The translations under genes were made by a program, and so were the position numbers. From positions 3,328,501 to 3,392,500 of the forward strand of contig AP031352.1 in assembly GCA_037833965.1 (NCBI GenBank): a DNA stretch of 64,000 bases, read 5' to 3'. Positions 20,020 through 61,159 of the stretch are shown here, one piece after another; within the stretch, counting starts at the first letter, position 1; the number at the start of each line of letters is the position of its first letter. This stretch comes from Marchantia polymorpha subsp. ruderalis (taxonomy: Eukaryota > Streptophyta > Marchantiopsida > Marchantiales > Marchantiaceae). Under the pieces are notes generated by a model. That model was not told the DNA's origin, did not search any database, and saw only the letters and a list, made by a program, of their open reading frames with translations.

Positions 20020-20106
20020 GTGATTGAGAGGTCCGCTCGAGAATCAGAGTCTCTCGCAAAGCTCGCAACGAGGCCGACGACGCGCGCTCGGTGGTCGAGG
20101 TTGGAA

Positions 20107-21315
20107 ATGGCCGCGGCTAGAGAGCTCGTCGTCGTGTGCCTGGCGGTGGCGGTGGCGGCGTGCATGTGGGCGATGCCGGCGCGCGCCTGGCTGCCCAAGG
20201 AGAACCCGATCCGCGGGGTCAATCTGGGAGGGCTATTCATCGTGGAGCCATGGATGATGGGCGACGAGTGGCGGAGCATGGGGTGCGGCGACTACGCGAG
20301 CGAATTCGACTGCGTGCGCGGCCTGGGCCAGACGGCTGCCAACGCCGCGTTCCAGAAGCACTGGGCGACATGGATCAACCAGACGGACATCGCGCAGATC
20401 AAGAGCGTGGGCCTGAACACCATCCGCGTTCCGCTCGGGTACTGGATCAAGGAGGATCTGGTGTACCGCGACAGCGAGTTCTGGCCCCAGGGCGGGTTCG
20501 CGTTCCTCGAGAGCTTGTGCCGGCACGCCACTGAAGCGGGCTTGTACATAATCCTCGACCTTCATGCCGCCCCCGGCGCGCAGAAGGCCTGGGAGGCCTT
20601 CACGGGCCAGATGGCCCCCACGCCCGGATTCTACCAGGATTACCAATACGAGAGGGCCCTGCAATTCATGGAGTGGCTGACGAATCTCGCGCACACCAAC
20701 CCGAACTTCGCCAACGTCGGAGCCATCCAGCTGATCAACGAGCCGCTTCAGAATCGCGACACCGTGCAAAGCATGCTCAATGGCTACTATCCGAACGCCT
20801 GGAAGCGCATTCGTGCCCTGGAAGACAGCCTCGGAGTCATCCCCAGCAACAGGCTGCATATCATGATGATGAACGGATTGTGGGGCAGCGGCGACCCCAA
20901 CGAAGGGCTCAAAGGAATCGACTTGTCTTTCGCTCTGTACGATGATCATCACTACCTGAAGTGGAGCACTGACCCGCCTGCGAACCGCAATGCTTACATG
21001 AGCCACTCGTGCACCAATGACAGAGGAGGCAATTTTCCCACCATCGTCGGAGAGTGGAGTCTGGCTACCGCCGACGAAGATGGTTCGGAGTTTGACATAA
21101 AGAAGGCCGATGCCGTGTCCTGGTACAGGAGGTGGTGGGCCGCCCAGGTGCTGAGCTACGAGAAGCAGCGAGGCTGGATTTTCTGGACCTGGAAGGTGAA
21201 CTGGATTAATGGACATTTGGAGTGGAGGTGGGGTTACCAGCAGGCCTATTTAGCCGGTGTCATTCCAAAGAACCCTCAAGAAGCGCACACTTACGGCGTC
21301 TGTAGCGGCGTTTGA
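20107..21315 (+). CDS. Secreted GH5 glucanase, fungal endo-beta-1,6-glucanase type
   Basis: This uninterrupted 402-aa frame encodes a glycoside hydrolase family 5 enzyme expected to cleave beta-glucan (beta-1,6, possibly beta-1,3) outside the cell. Residues 1 to about 27 form a signal peptide ending near ARA. The second ATG of the open frame (20107) was chosen over 20020 because the signal peptide begins there and the context is AAATGGCC. Family motifs in order are IRGVNLGGLFIVEPWM, GLNTIRVPLGYW, IILDLHAAPGAQ, LINEP (acid/base E212), DDHHY and VGEWS (nucleophile E316). The order and spacing resemble fungal glucan endo-1,6-beta-glucosidase B proteins more than plant GH5 enzymes as I recall them. 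The gene is intronless and GC-rich beside spliced neighbours, which fits transfer from a fungus. Substrate specificity is inferred. Confidence 0.9.
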   Translation: MAAARELVVVCLAVAVAACMWAMPARAWLPKENPIRGVNLGGLFIVEPWMMGDEWRSMGCGDYASEFDCVRGLGQTAANAAFQKHWATWINQTDIAQIKSVGLNTIRVPLGYWIKEDLVYRDSEFWPQGGFAFLESLCRHATEAGLYIILDLHAAPGAQKAWEAFTGQMAPTPGFYQDYQYERALQFMEWLTNLAHTNPNFANVGAIQLINEPLQNRDTVQSMLNGYYPNAWKRIRALEDSLGVIPSNRLHIMMMNGLWGSGDPNEGLKGIDLSFALYDDHHYLKWSTDPPANRNAYMSHSCTNDRGGNFPTIVGEWSLATADEDGSEFDIKKADAVSWYRRWWAAQVLSYEKQRGWIFWTWKVNWINGHLEWRWGYQQAYLAGVIPKNPQEAHTYGVCSGV

Positions 21316-46479: not shown

Positions 46480-47621
46480 ATGGCGATCAAAGTCCATGGA
46501 CGGCAAATTTCTCCCTACGTCAGAGTCGTGCTGTTGGTCTTGTACGAAAAGGGCGTGGACTTTGAGCTTGTATCGAGCGATCAGCACTCCGATGAGTATA
46601 TGGCGATGCTCAATCCTTTTGGAAAGCATCCGGCTGTTGAAGATGACGGCTTTCTTCTGTACGGTACGTTACTCTTGAGGAATATATTTTCCGATTCGGT
46701 TTTGCATTTTTATTTTTCATGAGAGACGCTTGGCCCATAAAAATCTAGAATTACTGAGAATTACTGAGTCACCATGCTCATGGAGGCAGCTGCCGTGGAC
46801 AGTTCGATGATTATACATGAAATCGTGAGGGATTATTGGTAGATGGTAGACAGAAATGGCTGAGCGGATGACTGCAATAATTAAACTTCGGTGTCTTTCT
46901 TCCACGGATATTAGATTTCACAATCACTGTAATTGTGGAAAGTTTGGGAGGTTGGAGGGACTCTTGAATTAGAGCACCTCTGACGGTGCAACAAGTGATT
47001 TGTGCTGGATACTTAACTTCACATGTTAGTAGACTCCATGAAAGTTTTCAAATTACATGAGGACAACCATGAGCAGATCATGGTTGTCTACTTGTGATTT
47101 GTAATCACAGAGAAGAAGCTTATTGTGTTAAGCTTTGACACGCATTGACTGTTGCTACCCGGCTTGGTGCAGAAAGTAGAGCAATAGTCAGATATTTTGC
47201 AACGAAGTACGAAAGCCGGGAACCGAATCTGCTTGGATCAACTCCTCATGAGAGGGCACTGGTCGATCAGTGGACTGAAGTGCAAGGACAGATTTTCCAT
47301 CACCCAATTTTGAAAATCAACTCAGAGTTATACCTCGGGCCAACATTTTACAAGAAAAATACGGACTTAGCCGTGGTGAAACAAAATTGCGCGAAGTTAG
47401 AATTGATATTAGACATCTATGATGCTCGCCTGGCTAAGAATCAGTATTTGGCGGGGAATTTTTACTCCATGGCAGATTTGATCCATATTCCCATGCTGTA
47501 CATTTTACTGACCCACACCGACCAGGGGAGTTTGATTACCAGGCGAAAGCATGTATATGCTTGGTACAGAGATATTTCTTGTAGACCAGCATGGAGGAAG
47601 ATTTTGGAAACGCAGATATGA
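46480..47621 (+). CDS. GSTF: Phi-class glutathione S-transferase, copy 1
   Basis: This is a cytosolic enzyme conjugating glutathione to electrophiles. Exons 46480-46663 and 47173-47621 join in frame (633 nt, 210 aa). The thioredoxin-like N-domain carries Ser11 (QISPYV), the phi-class catalytic position, the proline of GKHPAV (P51) and ESRAI (62-66) binding the glutathione Glu. The all-helical C-domain follows with LVDQW, LDIYDARLAKNQYLAG and the helix-cap motif MADLIHIP. The single intron falls just before ESRAI. The last codons (LETQI) overlap the junction of a 140-bp tandem duplication, which appears to have set the present stop and altered the C-terminus. It is paralogous to the gene at 52.9-54.4 kb. 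Confidence 0.93.
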
Positions 47622-52938: not shown

Positions 52939-54407
52939 ATGGTGATAACGATTTACGGACGCTGCCTCTCTCCATACGTGAAACTTGTGCTTTTCGGTTT
53001 GTACGAGAGGAATGTTGACGAGTTCGAGATAGTGCCGATCAATCCGCATGATCCAGAACTCGTAACAAATGTGAGCCCCTTCGGAAAGGTTCCAGGGGTG
53101 GTAATCGATGGATTGGCTCTCAGTGGTATGTTCAATGCTTGAGCATTTTCAGAATTTGTGAAGACTAGATGTCGACTACATTTGCTTCAGGTTTTCGAGT
53201 GAGATTCGTGAGTGCATGTGAGTGGAGTTTGTGAGATCATGGAAATCTGACAGCGTAGAATATGAGAAACAGGCATGTCAAGGCGAGGGATAGGAAGGGA
53301 ATAAAAGCCCAAGCCATTAAAAAGAGTTCAGATTTTGTGATATGCCAACGACTATGTTCACGAAAATGTGCATCAACGAACTGTTGCTTTCAGTGCTGAG
53401 AATGCTGGCACTGTCTCTGCAAGTTACGGAATGAATTTATTTCAAACTCTGCACACAAGGGGTCAAGTCGTTTGATATGTGTGAGTTACGTTCATGAAAC
53501 AGGCGACTTGGTATAAATTTTGTAATCGTGAGAATCACGATTACAGAATATATACCAAGTTCTCGTAAATTGGTTCCTAACAACTGTCAAAGATCCGAGC
53601 GGAGCAACGAGTTGCGCCCGCTCCCATGCTAAGACGTGGCTAAAGACCCCGAGTCCAAATGCTGCTCCGCATCGCAATGGACAGAGGCCCCTCTCGAGGA
53701 TGCACGGATGATTGTGACACATGAATCAGCTTTTCAGCAGCTTAGGGAGAAGCTACGCGCCACGGATGCACGTTCCGTCTTGTAAGAGCTTAGTCCATCA
53801 GGACCCGTGGACTTTGGATGCCGCACCTGAACGGGGCAAACGCATTCGATGATACCTCCCATCAGACAATCTTGGGCGGTTGATTGAATGTACTTCAGGA
53901 GCTGGGCATGTTTCCGGACTGATGCACGTTCTCCTGCTTGTTGCAGAAAGTAGAGCAATTCTCAAGTACATTGTGACAAAGTTTGAGATCGAGGGCTCAA
54001 ATCTGATGGGATCAACTGCTGAGGAGAAAGCAAAAGTTGATATGTGGATTGATCTGGAAACGATGATTTTGCATCCCGCCGTGATGGCTCTCAACGGGCA
54101 CCTCTATAATAGGCCGAATTTCTACTCGAAGGAAACAAACCAAGTTGCTGTAGCAGAGAACATTCCTAAGGTTGAGAAAATTCTAGACGTCTATGATGCT
54201 CACCTCGCCAAGAATAAGTACTTGGCAGGAGACTTTTTCTCCATAGCAGATATGATTCACATCCCTCCGCTGTACATTCTCGTGAACAAAAGTCGATGTG
54301 CAAGTATGTTTACCAGCCGAGAGCATCTGAAAGCTTGGTGGGAGGACATCTCCTCCAGGCCATCTTGGAAGAAGGTACTAGAAAATAATACTGAGGATTG
54401 TGAATAG
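52939..54407 (+). CDS. GSTF: Phi-class glutathione S-transferase, copy 2
   Basis: Exons 52939-53125 and 53947-54407 join in frame (648 nt, 215 aa). The fold and intron position match copy 1. Ser11 (CLSPYV), P52 in GKVPGV and ESRAI at 63-67 form the glutathione site. The C-domain has GSTAEEKAKVDMW, LDVYDAHLAKNKYLAGDFFS and IADMIHIP, ending RPSWKKVLENNTEDCE. This is the C-terminal form expected for the family, unlike the altered end of copy 1. Both copies share the acceptor sequence TTGCAG followed by AAAGTAGAGCAAT. The 821-bp intron contains a 55-nt hairpin. Confidence 0.94.
53506..53560. repeat. 55-nt hairpin in the intron of GST copy 2
   Basis: The outer arms ACTTGGTATA (53506-53515) and TATACCAAGT (53551-53560) enclose inner arms TGTAATCGTGA (53521-53531) and TCACGATTACA (53535-53545). 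The loop is 3 nt, with symmetrical 5-nt internal bulges. Confidence 0.95.
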
Positions 54408-55981: not shown

Positions 55982-58900
55982 AAGATGCAACGTCCTCGTT
56001 GCACATACGTTCAAACTCCTGAACTATCAAAGGTGCATTTGCTAAATTTTTAGCTGGTTCCCAAGTTGATTCATACGATGGATAGCCTTTCTATTGAATC
56101 AAATACTCTACTTTGGGATATTTATGACCTCGAATACGTTTCTTGAGTATCTTTTCTACCTCAAACTCCTCATGATCTGCTATCAATGTTGGAAGAGGAG
56201 GTGGTGCTGGTTGGTTGGTGAATTTGTTTGGTCATGGTACATGTTTTTGCAATCGTGACACATGAAATACTGGATGTATTTTCATATGTGACAGAAGTTC
56301 CAACTTGTATGACACTTCACCAACACGCTTCAAAACCAAACATGGACCAATGAACCTAGGGTTTAACTTTGGTGTTCATACAAGAAACAAATTCGTTGTA
56401 GATAACCAAACATGATCTCCAACCTCGAAAATCACTTCTCTACGATAAGCATCGGCATGCTGCTTTTGCCGATTTTGAGCTATCACCAACTTCTCCTTGG
56501 CCTGATATAGTCCTCGGTGAATATGCTCCACGAATTCGTTGACTGCTGCAACTTTGGTCGAAAACTCCTCTCCTTTGGGAAGTCTCATCAAACTTGAAGG
56601 AGTTATAGAATGAGCTCCATACATAAGAAAAAATGGATACACTTTTGTTGATGCATTAACAGAATTGTTATATGCAAATTCCACAAGTGGCAAAAGGTTG
56701 TCCAACTCTTCTTGCTCTTCTAATGTGAATGCTCGTAGCATATCCTCTATGGTCCTCTTTGCCCTCTCAGTTTGTCCATCAGTTTGAGGGTGATAGGCCG
56801 TTGACATTGCTAGTTTTGTTTTGAAAAAACTAAACAAAGTTTTCCAAAATAAACTAGTGAAGTGAGTAACGCTATCCGTGATTAACACTTTGCTTAAGCC
56901 ATGATTCACAAAAACTGCATCTAGATACAATTGAGCTAGTTGTGGAGCTGTTACTGTTTTTGTGGTTGGCCTAATGTGAATCATCTTGCTCAATTTGTCC
57001 ACAAAAACCACCACTAAATCATGTCTTAACAAAGTCCTTGGTAACTCACATACAAGATCCATGATGACATGTTCCCACCGCTGTTCGGGAATAGGAAGAG
57101 GCTGTAATAAACCCGCTGATTTTTGATTACTTGCCTTGTTTTGTTGACAAGCAACACAACTTCGAACATAAAACTCCACATCCTCACGTATTTTGGGCCA
57201 ATGGTACACTCGTTGTATACTCTCCACGGTTTTTTCCACTCCCACATGACCTGCAATGGCTGTATCATGACTTTCTGCCAAAATCATTGTGCGCAAATCG
57301 TGATCTTGTGGAATCCATATACGCTGATTGTAAAACGCCAAACCTTGAGATTTCTATGCCTTTCCAGTTTGTAATGCCTGAGTGATCTCTTCATCCTCCT
57401 TTGTGGCTTGTGACATCTTGCTCCACCAATACTCCTGAATTTTCACTTTTGCAACATGATTCAAACAAGGCATGCGTGTGAGAGCATCTGCAAGTTGCTT
57501 CTTTCCCTCCACGTACACAATCTTCATGTTGAAGCGTTGACGCCACTCTGCCCATCGAATTTGTCGTTTGGACAGATCCTTCTGAGTTTCCAAATAAACC
57601 AAGGGTTTTTTATCAGTCTCCACCACAAACTCCTTATCACCCAAATAATGCTTCCAATGTTTGGTTGCCAACACGATGGCTAACTCCTCCCGTTGTGTTG
57701 TGTGATAATTTAGTTCCGCCGCCACCAACTTTCGAGAATAAAAAGCAACTCGATGCCATCCATCCTCCCATTCTTGTTGAAGTATGCCACCTACTATTGT
57801 ACCTGATGCGTCAGTGGCCAACTTGATAGAACGGTTAGGATCATACCACTTGAGAATAGGTGTGTGTAACAAAGCATCTTTCAATGCTTGAAAAGCTAAC
57901 TCTTGAGCTGTTCCCTATCTCCACTTTTGACCTTTCCCTAACATGGAAGTCAAGGCCTGAGCTAGTCGAGCAAAACCTTTCACAAATCTACGATAGATAA
58001 CAGTGAGCACTAGAAAACTCTTCAATTGAGTTTGATCCTCAGGTGCTATCCATTTCTGAATGGCATCTATCTTCTCACTCATCACTTGGATTCCTATAGT
58101 TGTAACTCTATGACCCAAGTAATCTACTTCTGACTTGCCAAATTCACATTTTGAAGCTTTGGCATACAATTGATTGTCTCTTAAAACTTGAAGTACCTCC
58201 CGTAAATGACTTCTATGATCACTCAAAGTTTTACTATACACCAATATATCATCTAGAAAAACAATAACAGATTTATCTAGATAAGGGCGAAAGATATTGT
58301 TCATCAATCCCATGAATGTAGCTGGTGCATTAGTGAGACCAAAAGGCATCACCAGATATTCAAAGTGTTCATACCTAGTACGAAAAGCTGTGTTGTGACA
58401 TCTTCATCTGCAATTCGAATTTGATTGTAGCCGCTTCTCAAATCTAGCTTGGTGAAGTACTTCGCTCATTGAAGTTGATCAAACAAATCATCCATACGAG
58501 GTAATGGATATTTGTTTTTCACCGTTTGCTGATTTAACATAGGCGATAATCGATACATAGTCTCATGGATCCATCTTTCTTCTTCACAAAGAGTACTGGA
58601 GCTCCATAAGGTGAAACACTTGGTTGAATGAATCATTTGCTCAACATCTCCTCCACTTGAGCTTTGCATTCTTCCAATTCGTTTGGAGCCAAACGATATG
58701 GAGCTTTGCAAGTTGATGTACTTCCAGGTATCACCTCAATCTTGTGATCTACTCGCCTCTTTGGTGGTAATACTGCAGTTAGATCATTTGGAAAAACATC
58801 TTTATACTCCATAAAAATGTCGTTCAAGGACTCCGGGATGTAAGGTTTGTCCCTGGACCCAATATCTCTTATAAGTCCAAGGAAACATAAATCATCTCTA

Positions 58901-61159
58901 GAAATGGATGCTGTACCCATCACAAAGAGGGGTAAATTCCTATTCTGAGATCTAATTCTATCTCCATAGATCTTCCATCCACTACTTGTAATCACTTTTC
59001 TTCTCCAAACTACCTTCGGATTATATTGTTCCATCCATGGCATTCCAAGGATGACATCATATCGAGCTAAACGAATTACTCTCCATTCAATGTTCTCCTT
59101 GTATCTACCTATGGATAGTTCTACACTCCGTGGTAGTGTTTCTATCACTTCAGTTTGCCCGTTTGGCAATTCAACTTCTTCACTCACGTCCTTCATCAAC
59201 ATCAAACCTAACTTCATAGCAACACTCATTGATAGAAAATTCTCAGTTGCTCCAGGATCAATTAAAACTCTCACCTTGTGTCCTTCCATGAAACCATCAG
59301 TGACAATGAGTTGAGCTTGCTTCTTACTCCTTCCATGAGCTCCCAACCATTGCCTTCTTCCAACCTCGCCTTTTCTTCGCTTTGTAGAACCAGTAAGGCC
59401 GTGAGGCAAGATTACTGGTGATCTTCGTTTCCCGAAACTGCTTCCTCCACCTCTTCATACTCTATCCCCTCCATATTGTTGAACGGTCGTCGCTGCATGG
59501 GCCGTCCTCCTTGTTGTGTCGGCCGAACTCGACAAAACTTGGCTATGTGACCCATTCGTCCACATGCATAGCATTGGCGATTGTCACGAACTCCAGCTCC
59601 TCCTCGAACCATTTCCATTATTAGCATAACCTTCTTGCAAATTTGGAACTCCTGGTCGCCTAATCTCACCTCCAAATCTTGGTGGTGGTCCTCTTGTTGG
59701 TGCAAAACCTTCTCTACGTCGAAGGTTTCCCAACTCCATCGGTGTTGGACCAGATGGATCTCTAAAATTGCTCACTGGTTCACCGTGTGTGACACCAAAA
59801 GCACCCGAAATTCGTTGAGCAATTGCAATTGCTTCATTCACAGTAGATGGATTGCTTACCATCACCTCCTTTCGAATTTGATCTTTCAAGCCTCGTTTGA
59901 ACATGTCCAAGGCTTCAGCTCCACTCATATCCATGATAGATACTTGAAGATCACGAAATTCTTCAATGTACTCATGAATACCTACTTTCTGCTTCAGATC
60001 CCACAACTTCATTCTTGCAGTTTGAAGAGAATCCACCGCTTGAAAATTTTGCAGAAGTCCTTCTTGCATTCTACTCCACAAAATGGTAGCACCTCGTTCT
60101 GAAAGCATTCTCTCCCATGTTGTGTACCATGTGAGAGCCTTATCCGTAAGGTAAGATCTCATGAACATTCCTGCAATATAATCAGAAACATGAAAATGGG
60201 ATAAATGAATATTCATCATCATAATCCATCCCTCTAACACTCCCATTGCACTACTCCCTTTGTAAGCTTCCACCTTACAGGATTTTCCCATTTGAAGCAA
60301 AAGATTTGCTTGATCTTCAATCTCTTGAAGACGTCTCCTATTTGCCTCTGCTGCATCAATAGGAGTTGGTTCTGGCTGAACTTGGGAAGCTTGAACTTGA
60401 GGTTCAACTTCCATCTCTCCAACTCTCTCTCTTTCTACTTTCTCACTCTCTAATGCGAAGATTTTATCTTCCATGGCTTGTTGCTTGGTATGCCCATCTA
60501 CTATCGCTTTTCTCAACTACTTCATCTCCGCCATGATTGCATTGAGAACCTCACCCATATCAATTGATGTTCCAATGCTTTCTCACACTCCCTCTAATAC
60601 AAAGTGAGTATAATCACTATGTGACCTCTCAACAAAGGAGTCACAAAAGGTGGAGGTGACTCTATCGTAGCTCTATAGTACTACTCTCCATAATTCCTCA
60701 CAAGAAAATCTCTCCATATCCTCTTCTGTCTATATATTGTTCTAATCTCTACATAAGTGTTGAATCGAACCGGGACAGGTGATTCACGATTCAAATCCAT
60801 GAAACAATCAGTATAGAATGTATATAGTACAATCCCAAGTGTCTCCATAAGTAACTATTGGAAGAATCAGTGGCACTCTTGACTCCATCAATCTAGTCAT
60901 AAAATCTGCACCCCAACAAGCCACAAGGTACATCCGAAAATGATGTTTCTCCATGCAACGAAGTTGAATATCGAATAGGTTAGGAATTGGCGAGTCAATC
61001 CCGTCCATATCTGCAAAAACACAATTTTCCCCTTCCACCTCTCTCTACATGCAGATGAATGAACTCTTCCAGCCTCTATACACTCTCAAGACTACACTTC
61101 ATCATCATTCATTTGCTATTCCATGAGGGGTAATCCACACTCAAGGAAAGAGCAAGGTC

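Follow-up and report, generated by a model that had tools for sequence, protein, structure and literature searches.

A chromosomal GH5 glucanase gene of fungal type in Marchantia polymorpha and its possible gain by an early land plant

The 64,000-nucleotide stretch of Marchantia polymorpha subsp. ruderalis DNA analyzed here (the window; contig C3, bases 3328501-3392500; the genome comprises 241,466,482 bases on 9 contigs) carries an intact gene for a glycoside hydrolase of family 5 (GH5) that is integrated in the plant chromosome. Its protein falls in a single plant clade, and its nearest named non-plant relatives are ascomycete proteins, which bears out an earlier note that had read from the letters of this DNA a fungal-type GH5 enzyme in a plant genome. 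We propose, at slightly better than even odds (roughly 0.55), that the gene encodes a beta-1,6-glucanase of the GH5_15 type which an early land plant gained from an ascomycete-like fungus, kept, and used on the fungi in contact with it.

Results

The coding frame is a single open frame of 402 codons on the forward strand, uninterrupted from the ATG at 20107 to the TGA at 21313-21315. An in-frame extension upstream to a GTG at 20020 is possible; in the protein alignment the relatives start near the ATG. The 401-residue protein of M. paleacea, 93% identical, is collinear with the window protein, so that no coding intron is needed, in agreement with the earlier description of a single-exon frame. 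Cellulase/GH5 (PF00150, 6.3e-19) was the sole family that Pfam returned for the 402-codon protein, and a search of NCBIfam with the same protein gave no match. The features of the gene are as follows.

20107..21315, + strand: GH5_15-like glucanase coding frame, 402 codons plus stop, intronless (open-frame list, Pfam, alignment with relatives)
20107..20187, + strand: probable signal peptide, residues 1-27, predicted from the hydrophobicity profile and the alignment (hydrophobic stretch, then ARA-WLP)
20740..20742, + strand: codon for E212 (within NEP), the predicted acid/base; glutamate in 172 of the 173 rows of the alignment, matched to E192 of the Candida exo-1,3-glucanase
21052..21054, + strand: codon for E316 (within GEW), the predicted nucleophile; glutamate in 172 of the 173 rows of the alignment, with one gap, matched to E292 of the Candida enzyme

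Residues R107, H153, N211, E212, H281, Y283, E316 and W360 are each conserved in at least 171 of the 173 aligned rows, and correspond to what we take to be the canonical GH5 set of two catalytic glutamates together with R, H, N, H, Y and W. By its domain, barrel fold, catalytic glutamates and conserved residues the window protein is a member of GH5, and the GH5 motifs recognized earlier are present. The N-terminus is strongly hydrophobic up to the ARA-WLP segment, and many relatives have a similar AWLP after a hydrophobic start of their own, a pattern that agrees with the signal peptide proposed before and predicts secretion.

The frame is indeed rich in guanine plus cytosine (GC), at 60.5% overall and 80.6% at third codon positions against 39.5% for the window. 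The accompanying claim that the gene lies among AT-rich DNA is correct at the scale of the window and fails nearby, where the 2-kb flanks have 52.5% and 47.3% GC. In two paralogues of the same genome the third-position GC is 57% and 61%, and the GC richness of the window gene is therefore no mark of recent foreign origin.

The glucanase family has three copies in the genome, all on contig C3, at 2.45, 3.35 (the window gene) and 11.36 Mb (loci L081-L083), and the three represent two old lineages. Both further copies are full-length frames, the one at 11.36 Mb being 57% and the one at 2.45 Mb about 53-54% identical to the window protein. Their proteins match, letter for letter, P0015 (from its ATG) and P0033, both named M. 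polymorpha subsp. ruderalis, an identity that excludes contamination. Fungal contamination of the assembly, which a fungal-type protein of high GC might have brought to mind, is accordingly left with practically no probability and was rejected: the gene lies 3.35 Mb along its contig in a genome of few contigs, a CHCH-domain gene shares the window with pieces of glutathione transferase and with a Ty3-type element, and long contigs carry the liverwort orthologues too, one of 5.9 Mb that of M. paleacea (93% identical) and one of 66 Mb that of Riccia (80%). The plant family members elsewhere sit on contigs of 48.5 Mb (Diphasiastrum), 33 Mb (M. polymorpha) and 19 Mb (Ceratodon), with a second M. 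paleacea member on a contig of 4.7 Mb and the Calypogeia member on one of 2.5 Mb.

An ordinary plant GH5 gene was also considered. There are seven GH5 matches in the whole genome: three belong to the glucanase family on C3, two share one frame of contig C4, and contigs C2 and C9 have a single match apiece. When the window protein was compared with the C4 frame, with one frame of the C2 locus and with one of the C9 locus, no E value fell below 0.024; the other GH5 genes of the genome are not close to it, and membership in an ordinary plant GH5 clade was rejected. The C4 frame (L087, 604-2685, at about 7.07 Mb) is a further GH5 gene with a long open frame, 693 residues from its first ATG, and is unlike the glucanase family.

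Protein searches gave 566 matches with the window protein as query, 840 with the moss protein and 1276 with the lycophyte protein; the best 120 of each were considered, and their union comprises 172 proteins. Among the best 120 of the 566, the liverworts M. paleacea (93% identical), Riccia fluitans (80%) and Calypogeia fissa (56%) were joined by the lycophyte Diphasiastrum complanatum (66%) and the moss Ceratodon purpureus (58%), and second copies of Riccia and M. paleacea were 55% identical. Among the matches listed, named fungi start at 59% identity (Maublancomyces, Geopyxis), the closest named relatives outside the plants are proteins of ascomycetes, 47-59% identical and in many cases called glucan endo-1,6-beta-glucosidase, and proteins without organism label reach 64%. 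The best 120 matches of the moss query and of the lycophyte query added no named plant. The named members of the union are nine plant proteins, one tardigrade protein and otherwise fungal proteins; none of these 172 matches carries the name of a seed plant, fern, hornwort, alga, Physcomitrium or Sphagnum.

Two non-plant members stand apart. P0165 of the tardigrade Paramacrobiotus metropolitanus, on a contig of 234,920 bases, is 55% identical to the lycophyte protein and groups with Dothideomycetes (96/71 in the 69-row tree described below), a position that speaks for a separate transfer or for contamination. P0096 and P0063 of the chytrid Entophlyctis take positions among proteins of Eurotiomycetes and Leotiomycetes, not beneath the ascomycetes, and could represent another transfer.

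A first, quick tree was built from 81 of the 173 rows, 29 of the 81 without organism label. The main tree of 69 rows leaves out P0012, P0029, P0041, P0063, P0065, P0073, P0075, P0084, P0118, P0136, P0139 and P0171, some of these being long, short or near-duplicates; the trees with outgroups also leave out P0040, P0048, P0101, P0157 and P0166, and a further tree holds all 173 rows under a plainer model. In the main tree the 10 named plant rows, the window included, form one group with four unlabelled rows (support 99/96). The plant clade recurs with outgroups (100/95 with 68 rows, 98/94 with 66 rows) and in the first tree (92), and in the 173-row tree the smallest group that holds the plants consists of the 10 plant rows and five unlabelled ones (97).

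Within the clade, lineage A (window, M. paleacea, Riccia) and lineage B/C (the second Marchantia and Riccia copies, and the moss with Calypogeia) each have support of 100/100. Diphasiastrum and one unlabelled row lie inside the clade at no settled position: the bryophyte rows form a group that excludes the lycophyte with a support of just 58/70, and the grouping of lineage A with the lycophyte has a p of 0.228. In the trees the named fungi closest to the plants are Maublancomyces, Geopyxis (with its second copy), Sarea and Orbiliomycetes. The Calypogeia protein, P0025, from a leafy liverwort, pairs with that of the moss Ceratodon (100/99) and stays apart from the B copies of Marchantia and Riccia; this pairing could stem from an old duplication followed by losses, from a transfer between plants or from contamination.

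The root was approached with four outgroup rows, with two PDB rows only, and with the two PDB rows placed on each of 61 internal branches of a fixed ingroup tree (LG+F+G4). Bacterial relatives (80 of 436 loci kept, 12 frames extracted, eight used in one tree and two in the four-outgroup tree) were 22-33% identical and too distant to help. Under the midpoint root, as in the searched outgroup trees, the plants fall among the fungi, and in the scan of the fixed tree none of the 12 best outgroup positions is within the plant clade, whereas positions 13-15 are.

Nine neighbouring frames of the window were also compared with Pfam; two of them matched no family, and a CHCH-domain frame lies 1.3 kb downstream of the glucanase gene. 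Further features are listed here; the two glutathione transferase pieces are perhaps a tandem pair.

47145-47621 and 53880-54407, + strand: glutathione transferase C-terminal pieces, about 6.7 kb apart (Pfam)
56376-60516, - strand: Ty3-type retroelement pieces (gag, protease, RNase H, integrase) in several frames (open frames, Pfam)

Discussion

Passages of PMC3526467 describe GH5_15 (in 2012) as an exclusively fungal subfamily of secreted beta-1,6-glucanases with Sordariomycete and Eurotiomycete clades. The window protein clusters with proteins of ascomycetes that bear the name glucan endo-1,6-beta-glucosidase; its fit to GH5_15 is tentative and follows the names of proteins in a tree that holds no assayed or CAZy-assigned GH5_15 row. 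From this grouping we infer a beta-1,6-glucanase activity. By homology the enzyme would be a retaining hydrolase that cuts beta-1,6-glucan, its acid/base being E212 and its nucleophile E316; it would leave the cell and attack or trim the walls of fungi touching the plant, as a defence or to manage the contact, this antifungal role being a looser suggestion than the activity itself. Beta-1,6-glucan occurs in oomycetes. It is likewise a component of fungal walls according to passages of PMC5567365 and PMC11254853.

A fungal-derived enzyme with some other use, on the plant's own wall or arabinogalactans or in feeding on dead fungal matter, appears unlikely. GH5 subfamilies of near fold have varied substrates, and lineage A carries a W162 where no W is found among the six commonest residues of the 173 rows, possibly a change near the active site; against this, the catalytic residues show no change, and beta-1,6-glucanase is what the closest named relatives are called.

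As to history, the gene would have passed from an ascomycete-like fungus to an early land plant, and would then have been retained and duplicated in liverworts and retained in some mosses and at least one lycophyte. The earlier note had named a bryophyte ancestor as the recipient. Liverworts and mosses do carry the gene; since the lycophyte Diphasiastrum carries it too, the recipient was probably an early land plant, a wider assignment. A fungal source is favoured by the description of GH5_15 as fungal only in passages of PMC3526467 and by the path lengths in the tree, which from the plants to the Pezizomycete Maublancomyces are 1.07 for lineage A, 0.78 for the lycophyte and 1.34 for lineage B/C, as compared with 1.29, 1.41 and 1.44 from Maublancomyces to Eurotiomycetes, Leotiomycetes and Dothideomycetes. 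The distances that separate plants from fungi therefore do not exceed those among ascomycete classes, and this speaks for transfer rather than common descent. Passages of PMC6579791 report Pezizales that infect mosses by means of appressoria, with one species on the thallose liverwort Riccardia; such contact of the nearest named fungal group with hosts of this kind is a lead and not evidence of transfer.

Several points weigh against this history. The trees with outgroups do not fix the root and so do not prove the direction, which consequently rests on distribution. Trees constrained to a root on the plant branch were marginally more likely than those searched freely, by 2.2 log units (p 0.55) in one comparison and by 1.3 (p 0.535) in the other; in the scan of the fixed tree the plant branch ranks 16th, 6.1 units worse and not rejected (p-AU 0.136), and the best position within the plant clade, the B/C branch, is 5.0 units worse (p-AU 0.41). 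The fungus-to-plant transfer proposed in the earlier note agrees with the nesting of the plants among fungi in the searched trees and is left short of proof by the plant-branch root. In addition, a donor nested in Pezizomycotina is hard to square with an ancestor as old as the one shared by mosses, liverworts and lycophytes, and we know of no enzyme of the plant clade that has been assayed. Lastly, when lineage A, lineage B/C and the lycophyte were each joined to the Maublancomyces group, none of the three placements was rejected at 0.05 (p 0.0865, 0.0645 and 0.0536).

The plant-branch roots would suit a gene that is old in plants and passed from them to fungi, or a shared eukaryotic gene lost in most lineages. 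We regard this as quite improbable: the plant-fungus path lengths do not fit descent from a common ancestor of plants and fungi, the relatives are mostly fungal with no alga named among the matches listed, one basidiomycete gene is annotated as GH5_15 in passages of PMC9626453, and the best-scoring root positions of the scan avoid the plant clade. The three unrejected placements would instead suit separate transfers, in which related ascomycetes supplied lineage A (with the window gene), lineage B/C of liverworts and mosses, and the lycophyte independently; the patchy distribution is in keeping with this, as is the repeated transfer of such genes into grasses published in passages of PMC8432771 and PMC5567365. 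These same placements are, however, 16-20 log units worse, and the plant rows group together with high support in all the trees, so that separate transfers have a rather low probability and a single transfer is favoured over several.

We therefore retain a single early gain from an ascomycete-like fungus, with the reservations given, and offer a fuller version of it only tentatively: the ancestor of liverworts, mosses and lycophytes may have taken a beta-1,6-glucanase from an early ascomycete and held off or managed fungi with it from the first life on land, and grasses may later have acquired such an enzyme from Epichloe, making at least two uptakes. Literature searches brought up no title or abstract that describes the GH5_15 family in non-seed plants; an earlier listing, for example in supplements, is possible. 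If the proposal is true, a subfamily described as fungal only extends to non-seed land plants, a wall-cutting enzyme joins the list of old gene gains by plants from fungi, and a model plant provides a testable case of whether or not a fungal enzyme acts in plant-fungus contact.

Among known systems, the window protein resembles GH5_15 in its single GH5 domain, predicted secretion, conserved catalytic residues and 47-59% identity to the named ascomycete proteins listed, and departs from the description in passages of PMC3526467 in lying in a plant chromosome, a difference of range and not of enzyme type. The plant exo-beta-1,3-glucosidases of GH5_14 (OsGH5BG type) share with it the occurrence of GH5 in plants and differ in a fascin-like module after strand 1 (passages of PMC3526467), of which Pfam, with Cellulase as the one family returned, finds none in the window protein; the fungal exo-1,3-glucanases of GH5_9 (Candida, Aspergillus) are just 24-28% identical to it.

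Other transfer gains reported for Marchantia are GH88, a fungal fruit body lectin and MTPSL (passages of PMC12890914 and PMC12448838), of which GH88 and the lectin are overrepresented in the set of genes that a fungal pathogen induces, while resistance has been linked to an MTPSL cluster. They are comparable as reported gains from fungi in early land plants or bryophytes that are tied to defence, and GH88 also in its distribution over mosses, liverworts, lycophytes and ferns (passages of PMC12890914); they differ in being enzymes and proteins other than a GH5 glucanase, and neither GH5 nor glucanase occurs in the main text of PMC12890914. A hornwort genome paper reports a transferred glycosyl hydrolase, its family not named in the passages concerned (PMC7027989).

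The closest parallels are LpBGNL of ryegrass and AsBGNL of bent grass, plant genes of fungal beta-1,6-glucanase type that are explained by fungus-to-plant transfer and ascribed to Epichloe in passages of PMC5567365 and PMC8432771; these grass sequences were left out of our trees. The grass genes are young (9-13 million years) and 72-82% identical to fungal proteins according to passages of PMC5567365, and LpBGNL has an intron, whereas the window gene is intronless and common to liverworts, mosses and a lycophyte. We class it as an older and wider case beside the published Epichloe-derived genes, and together with them it suggests repeated uptake by plants of the same tool.
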